A stretch of DNA of 43,463 nucleotides from Gammaproteobacteria bacterium (GCA_026989495.1 JALSJE010000128.1:1-43463), one strand, 5' to 3'. Positions 3,194-14,354 are shown, counted from the first letter of the stretch. Numbers and translations are program-made. Notes: generated by a model from the sequence alone, not told the origin.

Positions 3194-3199
3194 ATATTA
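3194..3199 (-). promoter_or_regulatory. Candidate -10 box for queD-folE2 (TAATAT)
   Basis: On the minus strand TAATAT lies 25 nt before the queD start and includes the TAA stop codon of dxs (3197-3199). No convincing -35 is visible. The predicted transcription start is about 18 nt before the queD ATG. Confidence 0.45.
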
Positions 3200-5083
3200 C
3201 CGGCCCACCGAGCGGCGTGCAATCGGGCCGCCCAGGCGCCGCAGGACCGCCATCCGGATGCCCTCGGCGTCGAGGCCGCACTCGGCGAGCTGCTCGGTGC
3301 GGGTGCCGTGGGCGACGAAGCGGTCGGGCAGGCCGAGCTGGAGCAGGGGGACCGTGAGCCCGTGCGCAGCCAGGCACTCGGCCACGGCGCTCCCGGCTCC
3401 GCCCGCCACCACGTTCTCCTCCACCGTGACCAGCAGGCGGTGCCCGCCCGCGAGCTCCAGCACCAGGTCCTCGTCCAGGGGCTTGACGAAGCGCATGTTG
3501 GCCACGGTGGCGTCCAGCGCCGCGCCCGCCTCCAGCGCCGCCGTGAGCGGGGCGCCGAAGGCGAGGATGGCCACCTCGCGTCCGCGCCGGCGCACCTCGC
3601 CCTTGCCCACGGGCAGGGGCTCGAGGCCCGGGGAGACGGTGGCGCCGGGGCCGGCGCCGCGGGGGTAGCGCACCGCCGCGGGGCCGTCGAGCCCGTAGCC
3701 CGTGGTGAGCATGCGGCGGCACTCGTCCTCGTCCGCGGGCGTCATCACCGTGAGGTTGGGCACGCAGCGGAGGAAGCTGAGGTCGAAGGCGCCCGCGTGC
3801 GTGGGCCCGTCCGGCCCCACCAGCCCCGCGCGGTCGATGGCGAACAGCACCGGCAGGTTCTGCAGCGCCACGTCGTGGATGAGCTGGTCGTAGGCGCGCT
3901 GCAGGAAGGTGGAGTAGATCGCCACCACCGGCCGCAGCCCCTCGCAGGCGAGACCGGCGGCGAGCGTGACGGCGTGCTGCTCGGCGATGCCCACGTCGTG
4001 GTAGCGCTCGGGGAAGCGCTCCGAGAAGGCCACCAGGCCGCTGCCCTCGCGCATGGCCGGGGTGATGGCGACGAGCCGCGGGTCGCGCGCGGCCATGTCG
4101 CACACCCAGTCCGAGAACACCCGGGTGTAGGTGGGGCCGGCGGGTGCGGGCGCGCGCGGCCGGCCGGTGGCGGGGTCGAAGGGGCCCACGCCGTGGTAGG
4201 TGCAGGGGTCGGCCTCGGCCGGCGCATAGCCCTTGCCCTTGCGCGTGATGACGTGCAGCAGGCGCGGGCCCGGGAGATCGCGCACGTTGCGCAGGGTGCG
4301 CACCAGGCCGGGCAGGTCGTGGCCGTCGAAGGGGCCGAAGTACTGGAAGCCGAGCTCCTCGAAGAGCGTGCCCGGCACCACCATGCCCTTCATGTGCTCC
4401 TCGGCGCGGCGCGCCAGCTCCTTCACGGGCGGCAGGTGCCCGAGCACGCGCTTGCCGCCCTCGCGCACCGTGGTGTAGAGCCGGCTCGAGAGCACGCGCG
4501 CGAAGTAGTTGGAGAGCGCCCCCACGTTGGGCGAGATGGACATCTCGTTGTCGTTGAGGACCACGAGCAGGTCGGCGTCGAGGTCGCCCGCGTGGTTCAG
4601 GGCCTCGAAGGCCATGCCGGCGGTCATGGCCCCGTCGCCGATCACGGCCACCACCCGGCGCCGCACGCCCGCGCGCGCCGACGCCACCGCCATGCCGAGC
4701 GCCGCGCTGATGGAGGTGCTGGAGTGGCCGGTGCCGAAGGCGTCGTAGGGGCTCTCCTCGCGCCGGGGGAAGCCGGCGATGCCGCCGCGCCGGCGGAGCG
4801 CCCGCATGGCCTCGCGCCGCCCCGTGAGGATCTTGTGGGGATAGCTCTGGTGGCCCACGTCCCACACGAGGCGGTCGTGGGGGGTGTCGAGGACGTAGTG
4901 CAGGGCGATGGCGAGCTCCACCGCGCCGAGGCCCGCCGCGAGATGCCCCCCCGTCTCGGCCACGCGCGCCACGATCTCGCCCCTGAGCTCCTCGGCCAGC
5001 GCCGGCAGCTCCTCGGGCGCGAGGCGGCGCAGATCCTCGGGCGACCGGATGCGGTCGAGCAGCGGCGTGGCGGATTCGCTCAT
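3197..5083 (-). CDS. dxs: 1-deoxy-D-xylulose-5-phosphate synthase
   Basis: 628 residues, full family length. It condenses pyruvate and glyceraldehyde 3-phosphate to DXP, the first step of the MEP isoprenoid pathway and a precursor for thiamine and pyridoxal phosphate. Visible signatures are G-H-Q-S-Y-P-H-K, the thiamine diphosphate motif [16 protein letters not shown], and [15 protein letters not shown] in the pyrimidine-binding domain. It lies downstream of ispA with a 66-nt gap that carries a TATAAT box (5111-5116), so it may be expressed both from the xseB-ispA operon and alone. Confidence 0.97.
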
Positions 5084-5110
5084 GGGGGTGGGGTCGGCCT
5101 TGGGTGGGCC

Positions 5111-5116
5111 ATTATA
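5111..5116 (-). promoter_or_regulatory. Candidate internal -10 box for dxs (TATAAT)
   Basis: A perfect TATAAT on the minus strand lies in the ispA-dxs gap, the only AT-rich patch there, about 28 nt before the dxs ATG. No TTGACA-like -35 is seen, so activity is not certain. Confidence 0.5.
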
Positions 5117-5149
5117 CCCCCGAGGCCCGGGCGCCCCGGCCGGCGTGCT

Positions 5150-6049
5150 TCAGGCGCGCCGGTAGGCCATGCGCAGCGCGAGCCCGCGCAGGGCCTCGGC
5201 GGCGGGGCCGAGGGGGGCGAGGGTGGCAAGGGCCTCGCTCACCAGCTCCTCCAGCCGCTCACGCGCGGCGTCCAGCCCCACCGCGGCAGGGTAGGTGGCC
5301 TTTTCCCGGGCCGCGTCCTGGCCGCTCGCCTTGCCCGTCTCCTCCGGACGGCCCTCCACGTCGAGCAGGTCGTCGCGGATCTGGAAGGCGAGCCCCACCA
5401 CCTTGGCGAAATGGTCGAGGCGGTCGAGCAGCGCCTGCGGCGCGGCCCCTGCCGCCAGCGCCCCCAGCATCACGCTCGCGCGGATGAGGGCGCCGGTCTT
5501 GTGGATGTGGATGTCCTCGACCTGGGCGGCGTCCAGCCGCCGGCCGGCGGCGAGCAGGTCCAGGGCCTGCCCGCCCGCCATCCCGCGGGAGCCTGCGGCG
5601 CGGGCGAGCAGCGCCACCATGCGCAGGCGCACGGGCGGTGCCGGGGCCGGCGCCGCGGCCAGCGCCTGGAAGGCCAGCGCCTGGAGGGCGTCGCCCGCCA
5701 GGATCGCCATCGCCTCGCCGAAGGCGCGGTGGCAGGTGGGCCGCCCTCGGCGCAGGTCGTCGTCATCCATGGCCGGCAGGTCGTCATGCACCAGGGAGTA
5801 GGCATGGATCAGCTCCACCGCGCAGGCCGGCGCATCGAGGGCCTCGGGCGCGGCGCCCGCCAGCTCGCCCGCGGCGTACACCAGGGCCGGACGCAGCCGC
5901 TTGCCCCCGCCCAGCACCGCATAGCGCATGGCCTCGTGCAGGCGCGCGGGATGGAGCCGGGCGGAAGGCAGGAGCGCCTCCAGCGCGGCCTCCACCCGGC
6001 TGCGGTACTCGGCCAGCCGGGCGTCGAGGCCCGCGCCCGGCTCAGGCAT
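5150..6049 (-). CDS. ispA: Farnesyl diphosphate synthase (geranyltranstransferase)
   Basis: 299 residues, normal for bacterial IspA. It adds isopentenyl diphosphate to dimethylallyl and geranyl diphosphate to make farnesyl diphosphate for quinones, undecaprenyl phosphate and hopanoids. The first aspartate-rich motif is [11 protein letters not shown] (from Asp89) and the second is R-D-D-L-L-D (Asp226, Asp227, Asp230); G-G-G-K-R-L-R-P (from residue 47) binds IPP. Its start overlaps the end of xseB by 8 nt, and dxs follows: the usual gammaproteobacterial xseB-ispA-dxs order. Confidence 0.96.
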
Positions 6050-6299
6050 CGTCGCCTTCCCGGAAGGGGCGGGGCGTGTCCTCGCCCTCGAGCAGGATCT
6101 GGACCTTCTGCTCGGCCTCGCGCAGGGCCTGCTGGCAGGCGCGCGTGAGCGCGATGCCGCGCTCGAAGCAGCGCAGCGACTCCTCCAGGGTGAGGTCGCC
6201 GCCCTCCAGCTTCTCGACCAGGGACTCGAGCTCGGCCAGCGCCCGCTCGAAGTCGGGGAGCGCGCCGGCGCCGGAGCCTTCTGTGGGCGCTTCGCTCAC
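6042..6299 (-). CDS. xseB: Exodeoxyribonuclease VII small subunit
   Basis: 85 residues from a GTG start at 6299. It is the small subunit of the single-strand-specific exonuclease VII, which has a large subunit XseA encoded elsewhere. The family pattern F-E-x-A-L-x-x-L-E-x-x-V-x-x-L-E-G-G-D-L-x-L-E-E-S-L is plain at residues 18-43, followed by a helix with F-E-R-G. It heads the xseB-ispA-dxs operon. The last codons overlap ispA, so the two are probably translationally coupled. Confidence 0.94.
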
Positions 6300-6391
6300 G
6301 GTGTGGCCGCCTGTGGATGCCTTGAAAGGGGGGTGGGCGGCACCTACGTTACTGGAGCGCCGCCCGGGGGGTCAACGCGGCGGCGCTCGAT

Positions 6392-6421
6392 TTGACAGGC
6401 GGCGGCGGTCGCCGCTAGACT
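6392..6421 (+). promoter_or_regulatory. Sigma70-type promoter of the rubrerythrin operon
   Basis: TTGACA (6392-6397) is a perfect -35, followed by an 18-bp spacer and TAGACT (6416-6421, four of six matches). The expected transcription start near 6428 abuts the palindrome at 6431-6449. This is the best-formed promoter in the window. Confidence 0.7.
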
Positions 6422-6430
6422 GACGCCATG

Positions 6431-6449
6431 ATTTAGACATAGTCTAAAT
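6431..6449 (+). promoter_or_regulatory. Perfect palindromic operator at the rubrerythrin transcription start
   Basis: ATTTAGACATAGTCTAAAT: 8-bp arms ATTTAGAC and GTCTAAAT around ATA. It is an AT-rich island in GC-rich DNA, immediately downstream of the -10, which suits a repressor. Arm length, spacing and composition resemble sites of the Fur/PerR/Irr superfamily, which often control rubrerythrins, but the exact sequence is not a standard Fur box. Regulator identity is inference. Confidence 0.65.
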
Positions 6450-6507
6450 CTGGAGGCCGGGCATGGGGCCCGGCCGCGACGTTCGGCGACAACGGAGGAG
6501 GAAGACC

Positions 6508-6930
6508 ATGCCCTCGCTGAAAGGCACCAAGACCGAGGAGAACCTGAAGGCCGCGTTCGCGGGCGAGTCCCAGGCGAACCGGCGCTACCTCTACTTCGCC
6601 GCCAAGGCGGACGTCGAGGGCTACAACGATGTGGCGGCCGTCTTCCGCTCCACCGCGGAGGGTGAGACCGGCCACGCCCACGGCCACCTCGAGTACCTCG
6701 AGGAGGTGGGCGATCCGGCGACGGGCCTGCCCATCGGCTCCACGCGGGACAACCTGAAGGCGGCCATCGCCGGCGAGACCTACGAGTACACCGACATGTA
6801 CCCCGGCATGGCCAAGACGGCCCGCGAGGAGGGCTTCGACGAGATCGCGGACTGGTTCGAGACGCTGGCCAAGGCCGAGCGCTCGCACGCCAACCGCTTC
6901 CAGAAGGCCCTCGACAGCCTCGAGGACTGA
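6508..6930 (+). CDS. Rubrerythrin-type diiron protein lacking the rubredoxin domain
   Basis: 140 residues from ATG 6508 with a strong GGAGGAGG upstream; a longer frame from 6463 has no such site. It is a ferritin-like four-helix protein. Diiron ligands by pattern are Glu20 (A-G-E-S-Q-A-N), Glu53 and His56 (G-E-T-G-H), Glu90/Glu93 (G-E-T-Y-E-Y) and Glu124 and His127 (A-E-R-S-H). The C-terminal rubredoxin (FeS4) domain of classical rubrerythrin is absent, so electrons for peroxide reduction must come from another protein. The next gene, a two-cluster Fe-S protein, is the natural candidate (inference). Confidence 0.93.
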
Positions 6931-7080
6931 GCCGGAAGGATCCGGCGCCATCCCCCGCGGACGCGGGGGCGGCGGGCAGGCGCCGGCGCCTGCCCGGGGG
7001 CGGTCCCGCACGGGCCGCTCGCGGACAGGCGCCGTGCCCGGTTTCGCGACCCTGCATATCCCGGCCGGAGCGGTCCGGCC
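6931..7080 (+). other. Series of strong hairpins between rubrerythrin and the Fe-S gene
   Basis: The 186-nt spacer holds four perfect inverted repeats: 6931-6946 (GCCGGA, loop AGGA, TCCGGC), 6952-6969 (CCCCCGCG, GA, CGCGGGGG), 6974-6995 (a perfect 22-bp palindrome, half-site GGGCAGGCGCC) and 7063-7080 (GGCCGGA, loop GCGG, TCCGGCC). None is followed by a T-run, so they are not standard intrinsic terminators. They may set different mRNA levels for the two genes by stabilising ends or slowing decay, or may be part of a repeat. Confidence 0.7.
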
Positions 7081-7116
7081 GTTCGACGGCATCGCACAGG
7101 ATCGGAAGGCACACCC

Positions 7117-8460
7117 ATGGCAGAGAAAGAAGGTATCCGTGAAGGCAGCCTGGAGGCGCCTGAGCGCCACCCGCTCAACTGGCGGGACCCGGGCTTCTGG
7201 GACGAGGAGGCGCTCTATGCCGAGCTGGCCCGGGTCTTCGACATCTGCCACGGGTGCCGCCGGTGCGTGAACCTCTGCAACGCCTTCCCCACGCTCTTCG
7301 ACCTCGTGGACGAGTCCGAGACCATGGAGGTGGACGGGGTCGCGCGCGAGGACTACTGGAAGGTCGTGGAGCACTGCTACCTGTGCGACCTGTGCTTCAT
7401 GACCAAGTGCCCCTACGTGCCGCCCCACCAGTGGAACGTGGACTTCCCCCACCTCATGCTGCGGGCGAAGGCGGTGCGCTTCCGCAGCCGCGGTGCGCGC
7501 CTTCGCGACCGGGTGCTGGCCTCCACGGACGCGGTCGGCCGGCTCGCCTCCATTCCCATCGTGGTGAACGTGGTCAACGCCGCCAACGGCAGCGGTGCCG
7601 GGCGCGCCCTGCTGGACAAGACGCTGGGCGTGCATCCCGGGGCGCTCCTGCCGCGCTACCACGGCCGCACCTTCCTGCGGCGCGCGCGCGGGCGCCGGCC
7701 GCTTCAGGCCGAGGCCGTCGCCGCCGGGCCCACGCGGGGCAGGGTGGCGCTCTATGTCACCTGCTACGGCAACTACAACGAGCCGGAGCTGGCCGAGGAC
7801 CTCATCGCCATCTTCGAGCACAACGGCATCCCCGTGCGGGTGATCGAGCGCACCCGCTGCTGCGGCATGCCCCGGCTCGAGCTGGGTGACCTCGAGGGCA
7901 TCGAGCGCCTCAAGGACCACAACATCCCCGAGCTCGTGCGGCTCGTGGACGAGGGCTGGGACCTGGTGGCGCCCGTGCCCTCCTGTGTCCTCATGTACAA
8001 GCAGGAGCTGCCGCTGCTGTTCCCGGACGACGAGGCGGTGCGCAAGGTCAAGGAGGCCTTCTACGACCCCTTCGAGTACCTGGCCATCCGCCATCGCCAC
8101 GGGCAGCTCCGCACCGACTTCCAGCGCCCGCTGGGCAAGGTGGCCTACCACGCCGCCTGCCACCTGCGCGTGCAGAACATCGGCCTCAAGACGCGCGAGC
8201 TCCTGGAGCTGGTGCCTGAGACCGAGGTGCAGGTGATCGAGCGCTGCTCGGGCCATGACGGCACCTACGCCGTCAAGCGCGAGTACCACGAGGTCTCCAT
8301 GAAGATCTGCCGGCCCGTGGCGCGCAAGGTCAAGGAGCTCGCGCCGGACCACTACGCGAGCGACTGCCCCATGGCCGGCCACCAGATCGAGAACGCGCTC
8401 GGGCGCGAGCGTCCGCCCGAGCACCCCTTGCGCCTGCTGCGGCAGGCCTACGGAATCTGA
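7117..8460 (+). CDS. Heterodisulfide reductase-related / GlpC-like protein with two 4Fe-4S clusters and CCG domains
   Basis: 447 residues from ATG 7117, with GGAAGG upstream. The N-terminal domain has two ferredoxin-type motifs: Cys44, 47, 50, 54 ([11 protein letters not shown]) and Cys87, 90, 93, 98 ([13 protein letters not shown]). The C-terminal half has two CCG-type (PF02754-like) segments: the first ends R-C-C-G-M-P; the second begins A-A-C-H-L-R and ends R-C-S-G-H-D-G, with Ser in place of the second Cys. HdrD and GlpC use these domains to hold a non-cubane cluster or pass electrons to quinones. The position between rubrerythrin and DUF3501 suggests an electron donor for peroxide reduction. 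No membrane segment is seen, and the substrate is unknown. Confidence 0.88.
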
Positions 8461-8463
8461 AGG

Positions 8464-8616
8464 AGCTCTGGAAAATTCGATTTTTCAGAGCTTCCCCGCG
8501 GCCAGGGACGGCCGCGGGACGGTCCATGCACAGGGAAGTGCATGACGACACGCAAAAAATCGAAATGGACCGCGAAGCGCCATCGCGCTGATCGATCCGC
8601 GCAGCGGATCGATCAG
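8464..8616 (+). other. Folded spacer with alternative hairpins between the Fe-S gene and DUF3501
   Basis: Beginning 3 nt after the stop codon, four inverted repeats follow: 8464-8492 (13-bp arms, loop TCG, one G-U pair), 8495-8518 (CCCGCGGCC, loop AGGGAC, GGCCGCGGG), 8525-8544 (CATGCAC, loop AGGGAA, GTGCATG) and 8588-8616 (13-bp arms, loop GCA). In addition TTCGATTTTT (8476-8485) is exactly complementary to AAAAATCGAA (8555-8564), so a long-range pairing competes with the first hairpin. The layout is compatible with an attenuator, a processing site or a small mobile repeat. Confidence 0.65.
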
Positions 8617-8622
8617 GGTTTC
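8563..8622 (-). repeat. Dispersed 60-bp repeat, copy A
   Basis: Read on the minus strand, this segment matches 11911-11970 (plus strand) at 52 of 60 positions (87%). It contains the near-palindrome GATCGATCCGCTGCGCGGAT. It lies between the Fe-S gene and the DUF3501 gene, in the opposite orientation to copy B. Confidence 0.8.
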
Positions 8623-8662
8623 ATGAAGCTGGCGGGCCGAGGGCCCGCCCGGGAGACGGAAC

Positions 8663-9256
8663 GTGCAAGCCATGCAGAAGCTCAAGCGCGAAGACCTCTG
8701 GAGTCTCGAGGACTACCATCGCGAGCGGCCCGGGTTCCGCCGCAAGGTGATGGCGCACAAGCGCGACCGCATCGTGCCCGTCGGGCCGAACGCGACGCTC
8801 CACTTCGAGGACCGCCTCACCATGCACTACCAGGTGCAGGAGATGCTGCGCGCCGAGCGCATCTACGAGCCGGAGGCGATCCAGGAAGAGCTCGACGCCT
8901 ACAATCCCCTGATCCCGGACGGGACCAACTGGAAGGCCACCTTCATGGTCGAGTACGACGACCCGGAGGTGCGCCGCGAGATGCTGACCAAGCTGGTCGG
9001 CATCGAGGACAAGGTGTGGGTGCGGGTCGGCGACCTGCCCAAGGTCTACGCGATCGCCGACGAGGACCTCGAGCGCGACCAGCCCGGCAAGACCTCTTCG
9101 GTGCACTTCCTGCGCTTCGAGCTCACACCGGAGATGATCGCCGCAGCCAAGGCCGGCGCTTCCGTCGCGGTGGGTGTCGAGCACCCGCTCTACACCTACT
9201 CGGTCGATCCCGTGCCCGAGAACGTGCGCGCCTCCCTCGTGCGCGACCTGGACTGA
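8663..9256 (+). CDS. DUF3501 family protein
   Basis: 197 residues from GTG 8663, which sits 7 nt after GGGAG; the ATG at 8672 three codons later is an alternative. It opens M-Q-K-L-K-R-E-D-L-W-S-L-E-D-Y, followed by R-D-R-I-V-P-V-G-P-N-A-T-L-H-F-E-D-R, the characteristic start of the DUF3501 family. It has no cysteines in motifs, no signal peptide and no membrane segment, so it is a soluble cytoplasmic protein. The family is known to sit beside rubrerythrin and HdrD-like Fe-S genes, as here. Its biochemical role is not known to me. Confidence 0.88.
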   Translation: MQAMQKLKREDLWSLEDYHRERPGFRRKVMAHKRDRIVPVGPNATLHFEDRLTMHYQVQEMLRAERIYEPEAIQEELDAYNPLIPDGTNWKATFMVEYDDPEVRREMLTKLVGIEDKVWVRVGDLPKVYAIADEDLERDQPGKTSSVHFLRFELTPEMIAAAKAGASVAVGVEHPLYTYSVDPVPENVRASLVRDLD

Positions 9257-9375
9257 CCCCGCCTCCCGTGCGCGCCCGGCTTCGACCGCCCCCCAAGGTT
9301 CCCGGGGGCGGGGGCGGGGGGCGCGGGGCGGGCGTCGGCGGCCATGGATTGCCTCTTCCGCCGTGCGTCTGCGTG

Positions 9376-9381
9376 TATACT
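9376..9381 (+). promoter_or_regulatory. -10 box (TATACT) of the CNP1-like gene
   Basis: TATACT ends 9 nt before the ATG at 9391, so transcription would begin about 3 nt before the start codon. There is no Shine-Dalgarno sequence. A -35 is not clear; TTGCCT at 9349-9354 is too far (21-nt spacer). Confidence 0.5.
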
Positions 9382-9390
9382 ACGCGCGGC

Positions 9391-11893
<2,503 letters not shown>

Positions 11894-11910
11894 GGAGGTT
11901 CCCTCTATGG

Positions 11911-11970
11911 GAAACGCTGATCGATCCGCTGCGCGGATTGATCATCGCGATAGTGCTTCGATGTCCATCT
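11911..11970 (+). repeat. Dispersed 60-bp repeat, copy B
   Basis: This copy lies in the parE-parC gap and matches the reverse complement of 8563-8622 at 52 of 60 positions. It is followed directly by a REP-like palindrome (11976-11992). Nothing coding is evident. Confidence 0.8.
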
Positions 11971-11975
11971 GCAGG

Positions 11976-11992
11976 CGCGGCTTCCAGCCGCG
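11976..11992 (+). repeat. REP-like palindrome between parE and parC
   Basis: CGCGGC, loop TTCCA, GCCGCG. Same loop and arm design as the units at 210-224 and 32849-32869. Confidence 0.7.
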
Positions 11993-12071
11993 CGGGCAGG
12001 GCGGTCGGTGAACGGGGGCCGGCGACGCAAGCGGCGGGTAGCGAGGGTTCGGCTGCTGGGTGGCGAAGGCG

Positions 12072-14354
12072 ATGACGAGGCGGAAGGGCAGGCGGAAGGG
12101 CGAGCGCGAGGCGGCCGCGCCGGCGGCGGCCGAGGTCGAGCGCATGCCGCTCAAGGCCTTCGCCGAGAAGGCCTACCTCGACTATTCCATGTACGTGATC
12201 CTGGACCGGGCCCTGCCCCACGTGGGCGACGGGCTCAAGCCGGTCCAGCGCCGCATCGTCTATGCCATGTCCGAGCTCGGGCTCGGGCCGGGCGCCAAGC
12301 CCAAGAAGTCGGCGCGCACGGTGGGCGACGTGCTCGGCAAGTTCCATCCCCACGGCGACGCCGCCTGCTACGAGGCCATGGTGCTCATGGCCCAGCCCTT
12401 CTCCTACCGCTACCCCATCATCGACGGGCAGGGCAACTGGGGCTCGCCCGACGACCCCAAGTCCTTCGCCGCCATGCGCTACACGGAGGCGCGGCTCGCC
12501 CCCTACGCCGAGGTGCTGCTGGCCGAGCTCGACCAGGGCACGGTGGACTGGATGCCCAACTTCGACGGCACCCTGCGCGAGCCGGCCGTGCTGCCCGCGC
12601 GCCTGCCCAACGTGCTCCTCAACGGGGCCACGGGCATCGCCGTGGGCATGGCCACCGACATCCCGCCCCACAACCTGCGCGAGGTGGCCGCCGCCTGCGT
12701 GCATCTGCTCGAGCATCCCGAGGCCACGGTGGCCGAGCTGTGCGAGCGCATCCTCGGGCCGGACTTCCCCACCGAGGCCGAGATCATCACCCCGCGCGAG
12801 GAGATCGTGCGCATCTACGAGAGCGGCACGGGTTCGATCCGCATGCGCGCGCGCTACGAGCGCGAGAACGGCGCCGTCGTCGTCACGGCGCTGCCCTACC
12901 AGGTCTCGGGGGCCAGGGTGCTGGAGCAGATCGCCGCCCAGATGCAGGCGAAGAAGCTGCCCCTGGTGGCGGACCTGCGCGACGAGTCCGACCACGAGAA
13001 CCCCACGCGGCTCGTGATCGTCCCGCGCAGCAGCCGCGTGGACGTGGCCGCGCTCATGGACCACCTGTTCGCCACCACCGACCTCGAGCGCAGCTACCGT
13101 GTCAACCTGAACGTCATCGGCCTCGACGGCCGCCCGCGCGTGCTGAGCCTCCGCGATCTGCTCGCCGAGTGGCTGGAGTTCCGCACGCGCACCGTGCGCC
13201 GCCGCCTCCAGCACCGCCTGGAGAAGGTGCGCGACCGCCTGCACGTGCTCGAGGGGCTGTTCGTCGTCTATCTCAACCTCGACGAGGTCATCGCCGCCAT
13301 CCGCGCCGCCGACGAGCCCAAGCCCGCGCTGATGGAGCGCTTCGGGCTCACCGCGCGCCAGGCCGAGGCGGTGCTGGAGATGCGCCTGCGCCAGCTCGCG
13401 CGCCTGGAGCAGATCAGGCTCGAGGCCGAGCGCGGCGCCCTCGAGCGGGAGCGCGGCGAGCTCGAGCGCACGCTCGCTTCGCCGCGGCGGCTGCGCACCC
13501 TCATCCGCAAGGAGATCGAGGCCGACGCCGAGCGCTACGGCGACGCGCGCCGCTCGCCGCTGGTCGCGCGCGGTCCGGCAAGGGCGCTGGACGAGTCCGC
13601 GCTGGTGCCGAGCGAGCCCGTGACCATCGTGCTCTCGGCCAAGGGCTTGGTGCGCGTCGCCAAGGGCCACGACGTGGACCCGGAGGGGCTCGCCTACCGC
13701 CCGGGCGACGGCTTCCTCGCCGCCGCGCGCGGGCGCAGCAACCAGCTCGCGGTCTTCCTCGACTCCACGGGCCGCGCCTATGCGCTGCCCGCCCACTCGC
13801 TGCCCTCGGCCCGCAGCCTGGGCGAGCCGCTCTCGGGCCGGCTCAACCCGCCGGACGGGGCCACCTTCGCCGGGGTGATGGCGGGCGAGGCCGAGAGCCT
13901 CTGGCTGCTCGCCACCAGCGCGGGCTACGCCTTCCTCGCCCGCCTCGGCGACCTGCAGGCCCGCAACCGCTCGGGCAAGGCCGTGCTCAGCGTCCCGCAG
14001 GGGGCGCGGGTGCTGCGGCCGGCACCGGTGCCCCCGGGCGAGGGGACGCTGGTGGCCGCCGCGGCGAGCGACGGGCGGCTGCTCGTCGTGCCCGCCGAGG
14101 CGCTGCCGCGGCTCGCGCGTGGGCGCGGCACGCGGCTGCAGGGCATCCCCTCGAAGAAGCTCGCCGCGGGCGAGCTCGAGATGGTGGCGGTGGCGGCCGT
14201 GCCGGCGGGCGGAGCGCTCGTGGTGCGCGCCGGCAAGCGTCGCATGACGCTCAAGGCGAAGGACCTCGAGGCCTATCGAGGCGAGCGCGGCCGGCGTGGG
14301 GCGTTGCTGCCGCGCGGCTGGCGCGGCGTCGAGGCCCTGGAGCCGGCCTTCTAG
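12072..14354 (+). CDS. parC: DNA topoisomerase IV subunit A
   Basis: 760 residues from ATG 12072 (GAAGG just upstream; a GTG at 12060 is in frame). It is the DNA-cleaving subunit that works with ParE in chromosome decatenation. The catalytic tyrosine is Tyr137 (A-A-M-R-Y-T-E). The quinolone-determining segment reads [12 protein letters not shown], so the position of E. coli ParC Ser80 is Ala97, while the Glu84 equivalent (Glu101) is kept; the spacing of 40 residues to the tyrosine agrees. The C-terminal beta-propeller is short, as in ParC rather than GyrA. The stop TAG overlaps the stop of the convergent lipoprotein gene. Confidence 0.96.

Follow-up and report, generated by a model that had tools for sequence, protein, structure and literature searches.

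What do a rubrerythrin that lacks its rubredoxin domain, a GlpC-like iron-sulfur protein and a DUF3501 protein do together, and what decides when they are made? The question is raised by three genes and their promoter region at positions 6392-9256 of a 43,463-nucleotide (nt) stretch of DNA from Gammaproteobacteria bacterium (GCA_026989495.1, JALSJE010000128.1:1-43463), the whole of which we call the window. The genes encode RBR, an aerobic-type rubrerythrin of 140 amino acids (aa) without a rubredoxin domain (6508-6930, plus strand; Pfam Rubrerythrin, 2.4e-31); RFO, the GlpC-like protein of 447 aa (7117-8460, plus strand; Pfam CCG in two stretches and a 114-sequence alignment); and a DUF3501 protein of 197 aa (8663-9256, plus strand; Pfam PF12007, 4.6e-74), for which homologues make an ATG at 8672, giving 194 aa, the likelier start. 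An earlier note on this DNA had described these three genes, running in one direction, as a candidate uncharacterised peroxide or sulfur-stress system. All three are present on the plus strand in that order, but the trio had already been recognized: Cardenas, Quatrini and Holmes analyzed it in 2016 as the "aerobic-type rubrerythrin system" and named RFO there (PMC5114695). The locus is thus real, conserved and mostly known, and our additions are a regulatory link and an analysis of the RFO cysteines. The first of these is sequence evidence for very probable Irr-type (iron/heme-sensing) control of the trio outside Alphaproteobacteria.

The window carries each mark of the published system: an RBR without rubredoxin, an adjoining DUF3501 gene and an adjoining COG0247/GlpC-like RFO. 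RBR has Pfam matches to Rubrerythrin and Ferritin only, a ferritin-like fold, and a complete di-iron ligand set (E20, E53-H56, E90, E93 and E124-H127) that is invariant in 115 sequences. In the PDB it matches the rubrerythrins 4di0 and 9onm (1e-76) and sulerythrin (8e-55), and is closest to Burkholderia rubrerythrin and sulerythrin. A single-domain relative, ferriperoxin (Fpx) of Hydrogenobacter thermophilus, is a peroxidase required for aerobic growth; in vitro it works with FNR and NADPH alone, and it reduces O2 only slowly (PMC3317640). It is highly likely, judging from the sequences, that the trio belongs to the known system and has a role against peroxide.

Co-occurrence of the three families was reported in 185 of 4461 genomes (PMC5114695), and the trio was later reported for mitochondria (PMC7050145); a hot-spring study pointed out oxyR beside it in Sideroxydans (PMC7852563). 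The earlier note had stated that the families co-occur and had proposed a search of many genomes. We did so in a phylum-wide sample and in 115 class genomes, with close to one genome per family, and found co-occurrence to be nearly perfect. DUF3501 is present in 48 of the 115 class genomes and RFO in 46, all within those 48, while aerobic RBR is present in all 48 and in one more, so that RFO never occurs without both of its partners (46/46). In other genomes a two-domain RBR comes with neither RFO nor DUF3501. Of 128 loci, 114 show the genes in the order RBR-RFO-DUF3501, and several of the others run into a contig end; the order is the same at each of the 15 DUF3501 loci fetched from the phylum-wide sample. 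In Nitrosomonas, DUF3501 is fused to RFO (PMC5114695); we found no such fusion among the fetched loci. One 100% complete genome (G034, locus L230) has an aerobic-type RBR, 78-79% identical, with neither DUF3501 nor RFO found, and offers a natural test of whether RBR needs its partners.

When the trio is made is suggested by the region 5' of RBR. A consensus scan found a sigma-70-type promoter, TTGACA and TAGACT separated by 18 nt (6392-6421, plus strand; 10/12 matches), the only one in positions 6300-9400, where 0.1 were expected. Just 3' of its -10 element lies a perfect palindrome, GATTTAGAC-ATA-GTCTAAATC, with 9-bp arms (6430-6450, no strand assigned), which occurs once in the window (0.01 expected) and has only one other site within two mismatches in the whole genome. 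We predict that this element, GATTTAGACATAGTCTAAATC, is an Irr-type operator overlapping the likely transcription start; its letters resemble those of the rhizobial ICE box. The earlier note's single promoter with a palindromic operator is therefore borne out as far as these two elements go. That the promoter serves all three genes is likely, and co-transcription is less sure because of the gaps of 186 nt between RBR and RFO and 202 nt between RFO and DUF3501, the second of which contains an inserted repeat.

The operator is shared by relatives. Its consensus across loci is TTTAGA(C/A)TNA(G/T)TCTAAA, and, allowing at most two mismatches at 12 fixed positions, it occurs 5' of RBR in 73 of 118 loci (five of which lack usable upstream sequence), downstream of RBR in 3 of 118, and in 1.8% of shuffled upstream sequences. 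In most motif-bearing relatives a TTGACA begins 34-42 nt ahead of the operator, the motif for the most part starting 36-41 nt past the first letter of TTGACA, and this position is, as predicted from spacing, that of a repressor site. Another genome (G064, locus L035) carries a second operator copy between RBR and RFO (5050-5066), which suggests a second controlled promoter inside that operon.

Which regulator would bind there? This genome has two Fur-family genes, encoding Fur and a protein (L082:1405-1845) that we call Irr-like because it does not reach the NCBIfam Irr and IrrA cut-offs. Irr-like proteins are found in 45 of the 115 class genomes, 34 of which also carry the trio (Fisher 6e-9, kinship ignored). 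Among trio genomes, the operator is present in 26 of 32 if Irr is present and in 3 of 14 if Irr is absent; in one operator genome counted as lacking Irr (G008), a diverged Irr-like gene adjoins DUF3501. An irr gene adjoins the trio in eight loci, four in the class set (L050, L074, L150 and L187) and four outside the class (L224-L227), where it immediately precedes RBR and points the same way. The proteins of these last four score 171-213 bits with the IrrA model, all over the cut-off of 150, and with the Irr model (cut-off 170) three score 188-198 bits and the fourth 158. A tree places all 39 Irr-type proteins in a single clade, separate from Fur and Zur (support 0.75). The HxH heme-binding motif, H96 and H98, is present in at least 95% of the 39, which is weak on its own since Fur has histidines there too. 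The trio's regulator is therefore very probably an Irr-type Fur-family protein, with predicted heme-responsive binding to the operator. Irr is described as confined to Alphaproteobacteria with few exceptions and as binding its boxes in the absence of heme (PMC7762939), and for that reason we predict repression at low iron or heme. A literature search found no paper joining DUF3501 with Irr, although its coverage of Irr regulons was incomplete and an earlier notice is possible.

Further matches to the operator, sought in 25 trio genomes, bear on the kind of stress. Most matches are RBR promoters. Others lie upstream of or near sodB (L211), grx4-prx (L213), a bacteriohemerythrin gene (L210), an oxyR-like fragment (L212) and katG (L047; the site is in the gap between xseB and katG, about 500 nt ahead of the latter). 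This genome's own second site (two mismatches; L080 1817-1833, contig C140) precedes a gene for a MauG/MbnH-like di-heme peroxidase. These targets would favor peroxide or iron stress over sulfur stress. In L080 (1926-4215) the di-heme peroxidase gene is followed by genes for a metallophosphoesterase and for a small protein resembling c-type cytochromes; a comparable phosphoesterase and cytochrome pair is also found 3' of the operator site in L212.

The chemistry available to RFO is narrowed by its cysteines, 15 of which are invariant in 114 of 114 sequences. Eight form two 4Fe-4S motifs (C44/47/50/54 and C87/90/93/98), matching the eight ferredoxin-type cysteines of the earlier note; C216, C248, C249 and C290 belong to the first CCG domain and C348, C377 and C417 to the second. 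Against E. coli GlpC (28% identity over 387 aligned residues), the ferredoxin-type cysteines and the first CCG domain match. The two CCG segments claimed earlier are there as Pfam stretches, but the second reads CSG and has lost two GlpC cysteines: S378 stands for C330, and A420 for C372, turning CxxC into CxxA. Just past the CSG motif, H380 is nearly invariant. With the NCBIfam GlpC models RFO scores 234 bits against a cut-off of 278 and 156 against 280, and its neighbors are RBR and DUF3501, not glpAB, so that it does not qualify as GlpC. The arrangement of HdrB and HdrD, two CCG domains each with CxxC and a noncubane bridging cysteine, is likewise absent from the 114 sequences, the first CCG domain having a single cysteine at its CxxC site. 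A search with the RFO profile against PDB sequences gave no match. The structure model (predicted local distance difference test, pLDDT, 86.9) returned LutA, HdrB and EtfD in a fold search. Each noncubane cluster of Hdr has its bridging cysteine on the catalytic iron. EtfD is an electron wire that makes no use of such a cysteine, and in one of its CCG motifs the second cysteine is replaced by threonine (PMC13083937). Because RFO has lost bridging-type cysteines, as EtfD does without them, we infer that it is more like an electron wire than a disulfide reductase. On balance it may well be the electron donor to RBR, in which case it would replace the missing rubredoxin, as the earlier note proposed.

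The DUF3501 protein here has no cysteines. Its invariant residues include E134-D135, R138, K143-T144 and H148, all in one loop, and many acidic residues. The model is confident overall (pLDDT 91.7), part of the invariant loop being its least certain stretch, and the only relative found in the PDB by fold search is 3fjv; since this is the family's own structural-genomics entry, the fold tells no function. Being cysteine-free, DUF3501 is a likelier adaptor or assembly factor than electron carrier, and we give the former role about an even chance. It stays with RBR even where RFO is absent; this and the lack of cysteines would fit the earlier suggestion that it completes the complex or its maturation.

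Taken as a whole, the explanation we prefer, with a fair degree of confidence, is an aerobic-type rubrerythrin system for peroxide defense, with RFO as wire, DUF3501 as partner and Irr-type control. The di-iron site of RBR would reduce hydrogen peroxide, as well as organic hydroperoxides, to water, and RFO would serve as a built-in wire that re-reduces RBR with electrons drawn from an upstream donor, which the analogy to GlpC and EtfD suggests to be a quinol or a flavoprotein. DUF3501 might dock RBR to RFO, or load or protect the di-iron site. Transcription would start just 5' of or inside the palindrome, where an Irr-type Fur-family repressor would block it when heme or iron is scarce; with sufficient iron or heme, or with the regulator oxidized, the iron-costly system would be made, and certain genomes would express other peroxide and oxygen genes alongside it. 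A bolder version, which we consider doubtful, is that the second CCG domain of RFO is a new kind of cluster site (three cysteines and an invariant histidine, CSGHDGT...DCxxA) and that RFO, as a wire that tolerates oxygen, carries electrons to a di-iron peroxidase from a flavoprotein or the quinol pool, making the trio a respiratory-chain-linked peroxide reductase under an Irr-type iron/heme regulon outside Alphaproteobacteria.

Several observations weigh against this explanation. The Irr-like protein of this genome reaches 123 bits with its best curated model, IrrA, and 117 with Irr, missing the cut-offs of 150 and 170. The off-target operator sites number five, equal to the background with a reversed pattern (five), so that their weight depends on what genes lie beside them. 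Shared ancestry links the genomes, and neither the co-occurrence counts nor the Fisher tests are corrected for it. Two of the 48 DUF3501 genomes, G066 (100% complete) and G081 (81%), keep RBR and DUF3501 with no RFO detected, and RFO is therefore not always needed. A stand-alone rubredoxin in this genome is another possible donor to RBR, which leaves RFO a plausible but not the sole candidate; the RFO-less genomes, this rubredoxin and the work of Fpx with FNR/NADPH (PMC3317640) all make it less certain that RFO replaces rubredoxin. In the literature, we found no biochemistry for RFO or DUF3501.

Some of these points would suit a different division of labor, in which RFO and DUF3501 serve maturation or repair, by delivering iron or by re-reducing a di-iron site after damage, and rubredoxin or FNR supplies the catalytic electrons. 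The in vitro turnover of Fpx (PMC3317640), the stand-alone rubredoxin, and a cysteine-free DUF3501 rich in invariant acidic residues that accompanies RBR even without RFO agree with it, yet the eight ferredoxin-type and seven CCG-domain cysteines kept in 114/114 RFO sequences have the layout of an electron-transfer protein, and neighbor clustering found no further electron-transfer gene recurring beside the trio. We regard this alternative as rather unlikely. Reduction of persulfides, disulfides or other sulfur compounds, with RFO as an HdrD/HdrB-like reductase, is most improbable. The HdrB-like fold and CCG domains of RFO would allow it, but domain 2 has CSG and CxxA, domain 1 a single cysteine at its CxxC site, and the bridging cysteines through which the noncubane clusters are catalytic are described for Hdr and go unused in the EtfD wire (PMC13083937); the operator's other targets, moreover, are peroxide and oxygen genes, not sulfur genes. 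We accordingly down-weighted sulfur or disulfide reduction on the RFO cysteine losses and the operator regulon, so that of the two stresses named in the earlier note the peroxide half is strengthened and the sulfur half disfavored. It is also very unlikely that RBR acts mainly in iron oxidation and storage or in O2 reduction, under Irr control as for iron storage by bacterioferritin: the ferritin-like fold and Irr-type operator agree with such a role, but Fpx is slow on O2 and acts as a peroxidase (PMC3317640), the RFO partner resembles an electron-transfer protein, and operator sites lie at katG, prx and the di-heme peroxidase gene.

The trio is flanked by divergent xseB-ispA-dxs (3197-6299) and downstream parE-parC (9986-14354). 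Neighbor clustering found these upstream and downstream neighbors in about a third of loci, and because this neighborhood recurs it points to vertical inheritance on the chromosome; plasmid-borne trios are essentially absent, with four records, all very large Burkholderia replicons. Directly after DUF3501, an open reading frame (9391-9948) encodes a small protein with a signal-like N-terminus. About 27 related loci have a small secreted-looking protein at the same position before parE, and we assigned the open reading frame to their family by eye.

Between RFO and DUF3501 lies a 159-nt dispersed, genus-specific repeat (8464-8622, no strand assigned), which stands outside the system. It has at least 40 other copies in the 2.5-Mb genome at 89-94% identity (40 of 211 candidates were scored), and the window holds a second, partial copy (11911-11968). 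Two congeneric genomes each have about 20 scored places at 81-88% identity and lack the repeat between RFO and DUF3501, where their gap is about 42 nt; it is practically absent from 34 genomes of other families. A hairpin lies at each end of the repeat and two more, with AGGGA loops, lie inside it; the repeat folds far better than shuffled sequences (z -6.6). It has a sub-threshold match to Rfam TwoAYGGAY, and no known RNA in the locus scored over the Rfam threshold. A structured RNA family is one possible identity for the repeat and a small mobile element another, and it may affect DUF3501 expression.

Compared with the published aerobic-type rubrerythrin system (PMC5114695), the locus has the same three families, the same neighborhood, a rubredoxin-free RBR and an RFO of the GlpC/HdrD family, and nothing excludes membership; the operator, the Irr link, the RFO cysteine comparison and the repeat inserted between RFO and DUF3501 are new here. 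The operator and a named candidate regulator give a direct handle on when the trio is made. RBR shares its single-domain form with Fpx and sulerythrin, and peroxidase function has been shown for Fpx (PMC3317640); the RFO gene of H. thermophilus lies at another place in the genome (PMC5114695), and the donor used in the tests was FNR. RFO differs from GlpC in its invariant CSGH signature, in S378 and A420, and in scoring under the GlpC cut-offs. It matches the fold of mycobacterial EtfD, which holds a linear 3Fe-4S and a noncubane 4Fe-4S cluster (PMC13083937). One CCG is altered in each, to threonine in EtfD and to serine in RFO, and the histidine ligand of EtfD has a counterpart in the nearly invariant histidine near the RFO motif; EtfD has membrane helices and a b heme, whereas RFO gives no sign of either. 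In the alphaproteobacterial Irr regulon, two predicted Irr boxes in Rhodobacter precede the rubrerythrin-like gene mbfA and the cytochrome c peroxidase gene ccpA (PMC3413700). An HxH Fur-family regulator with a rubrerythrin-like protein and a cytochrome c peroxidase among its targets is thus common to both, but the half-site here is mostly TTTAGAC and the Irr-like proteins occur in a class where Irr would be exceptional (PMC7762939). The Irr link predicts that the trio is co-regulated with other iron-dependent peroxide defenses and that Irr-type control reaches beyond Alphaproteobacteria.

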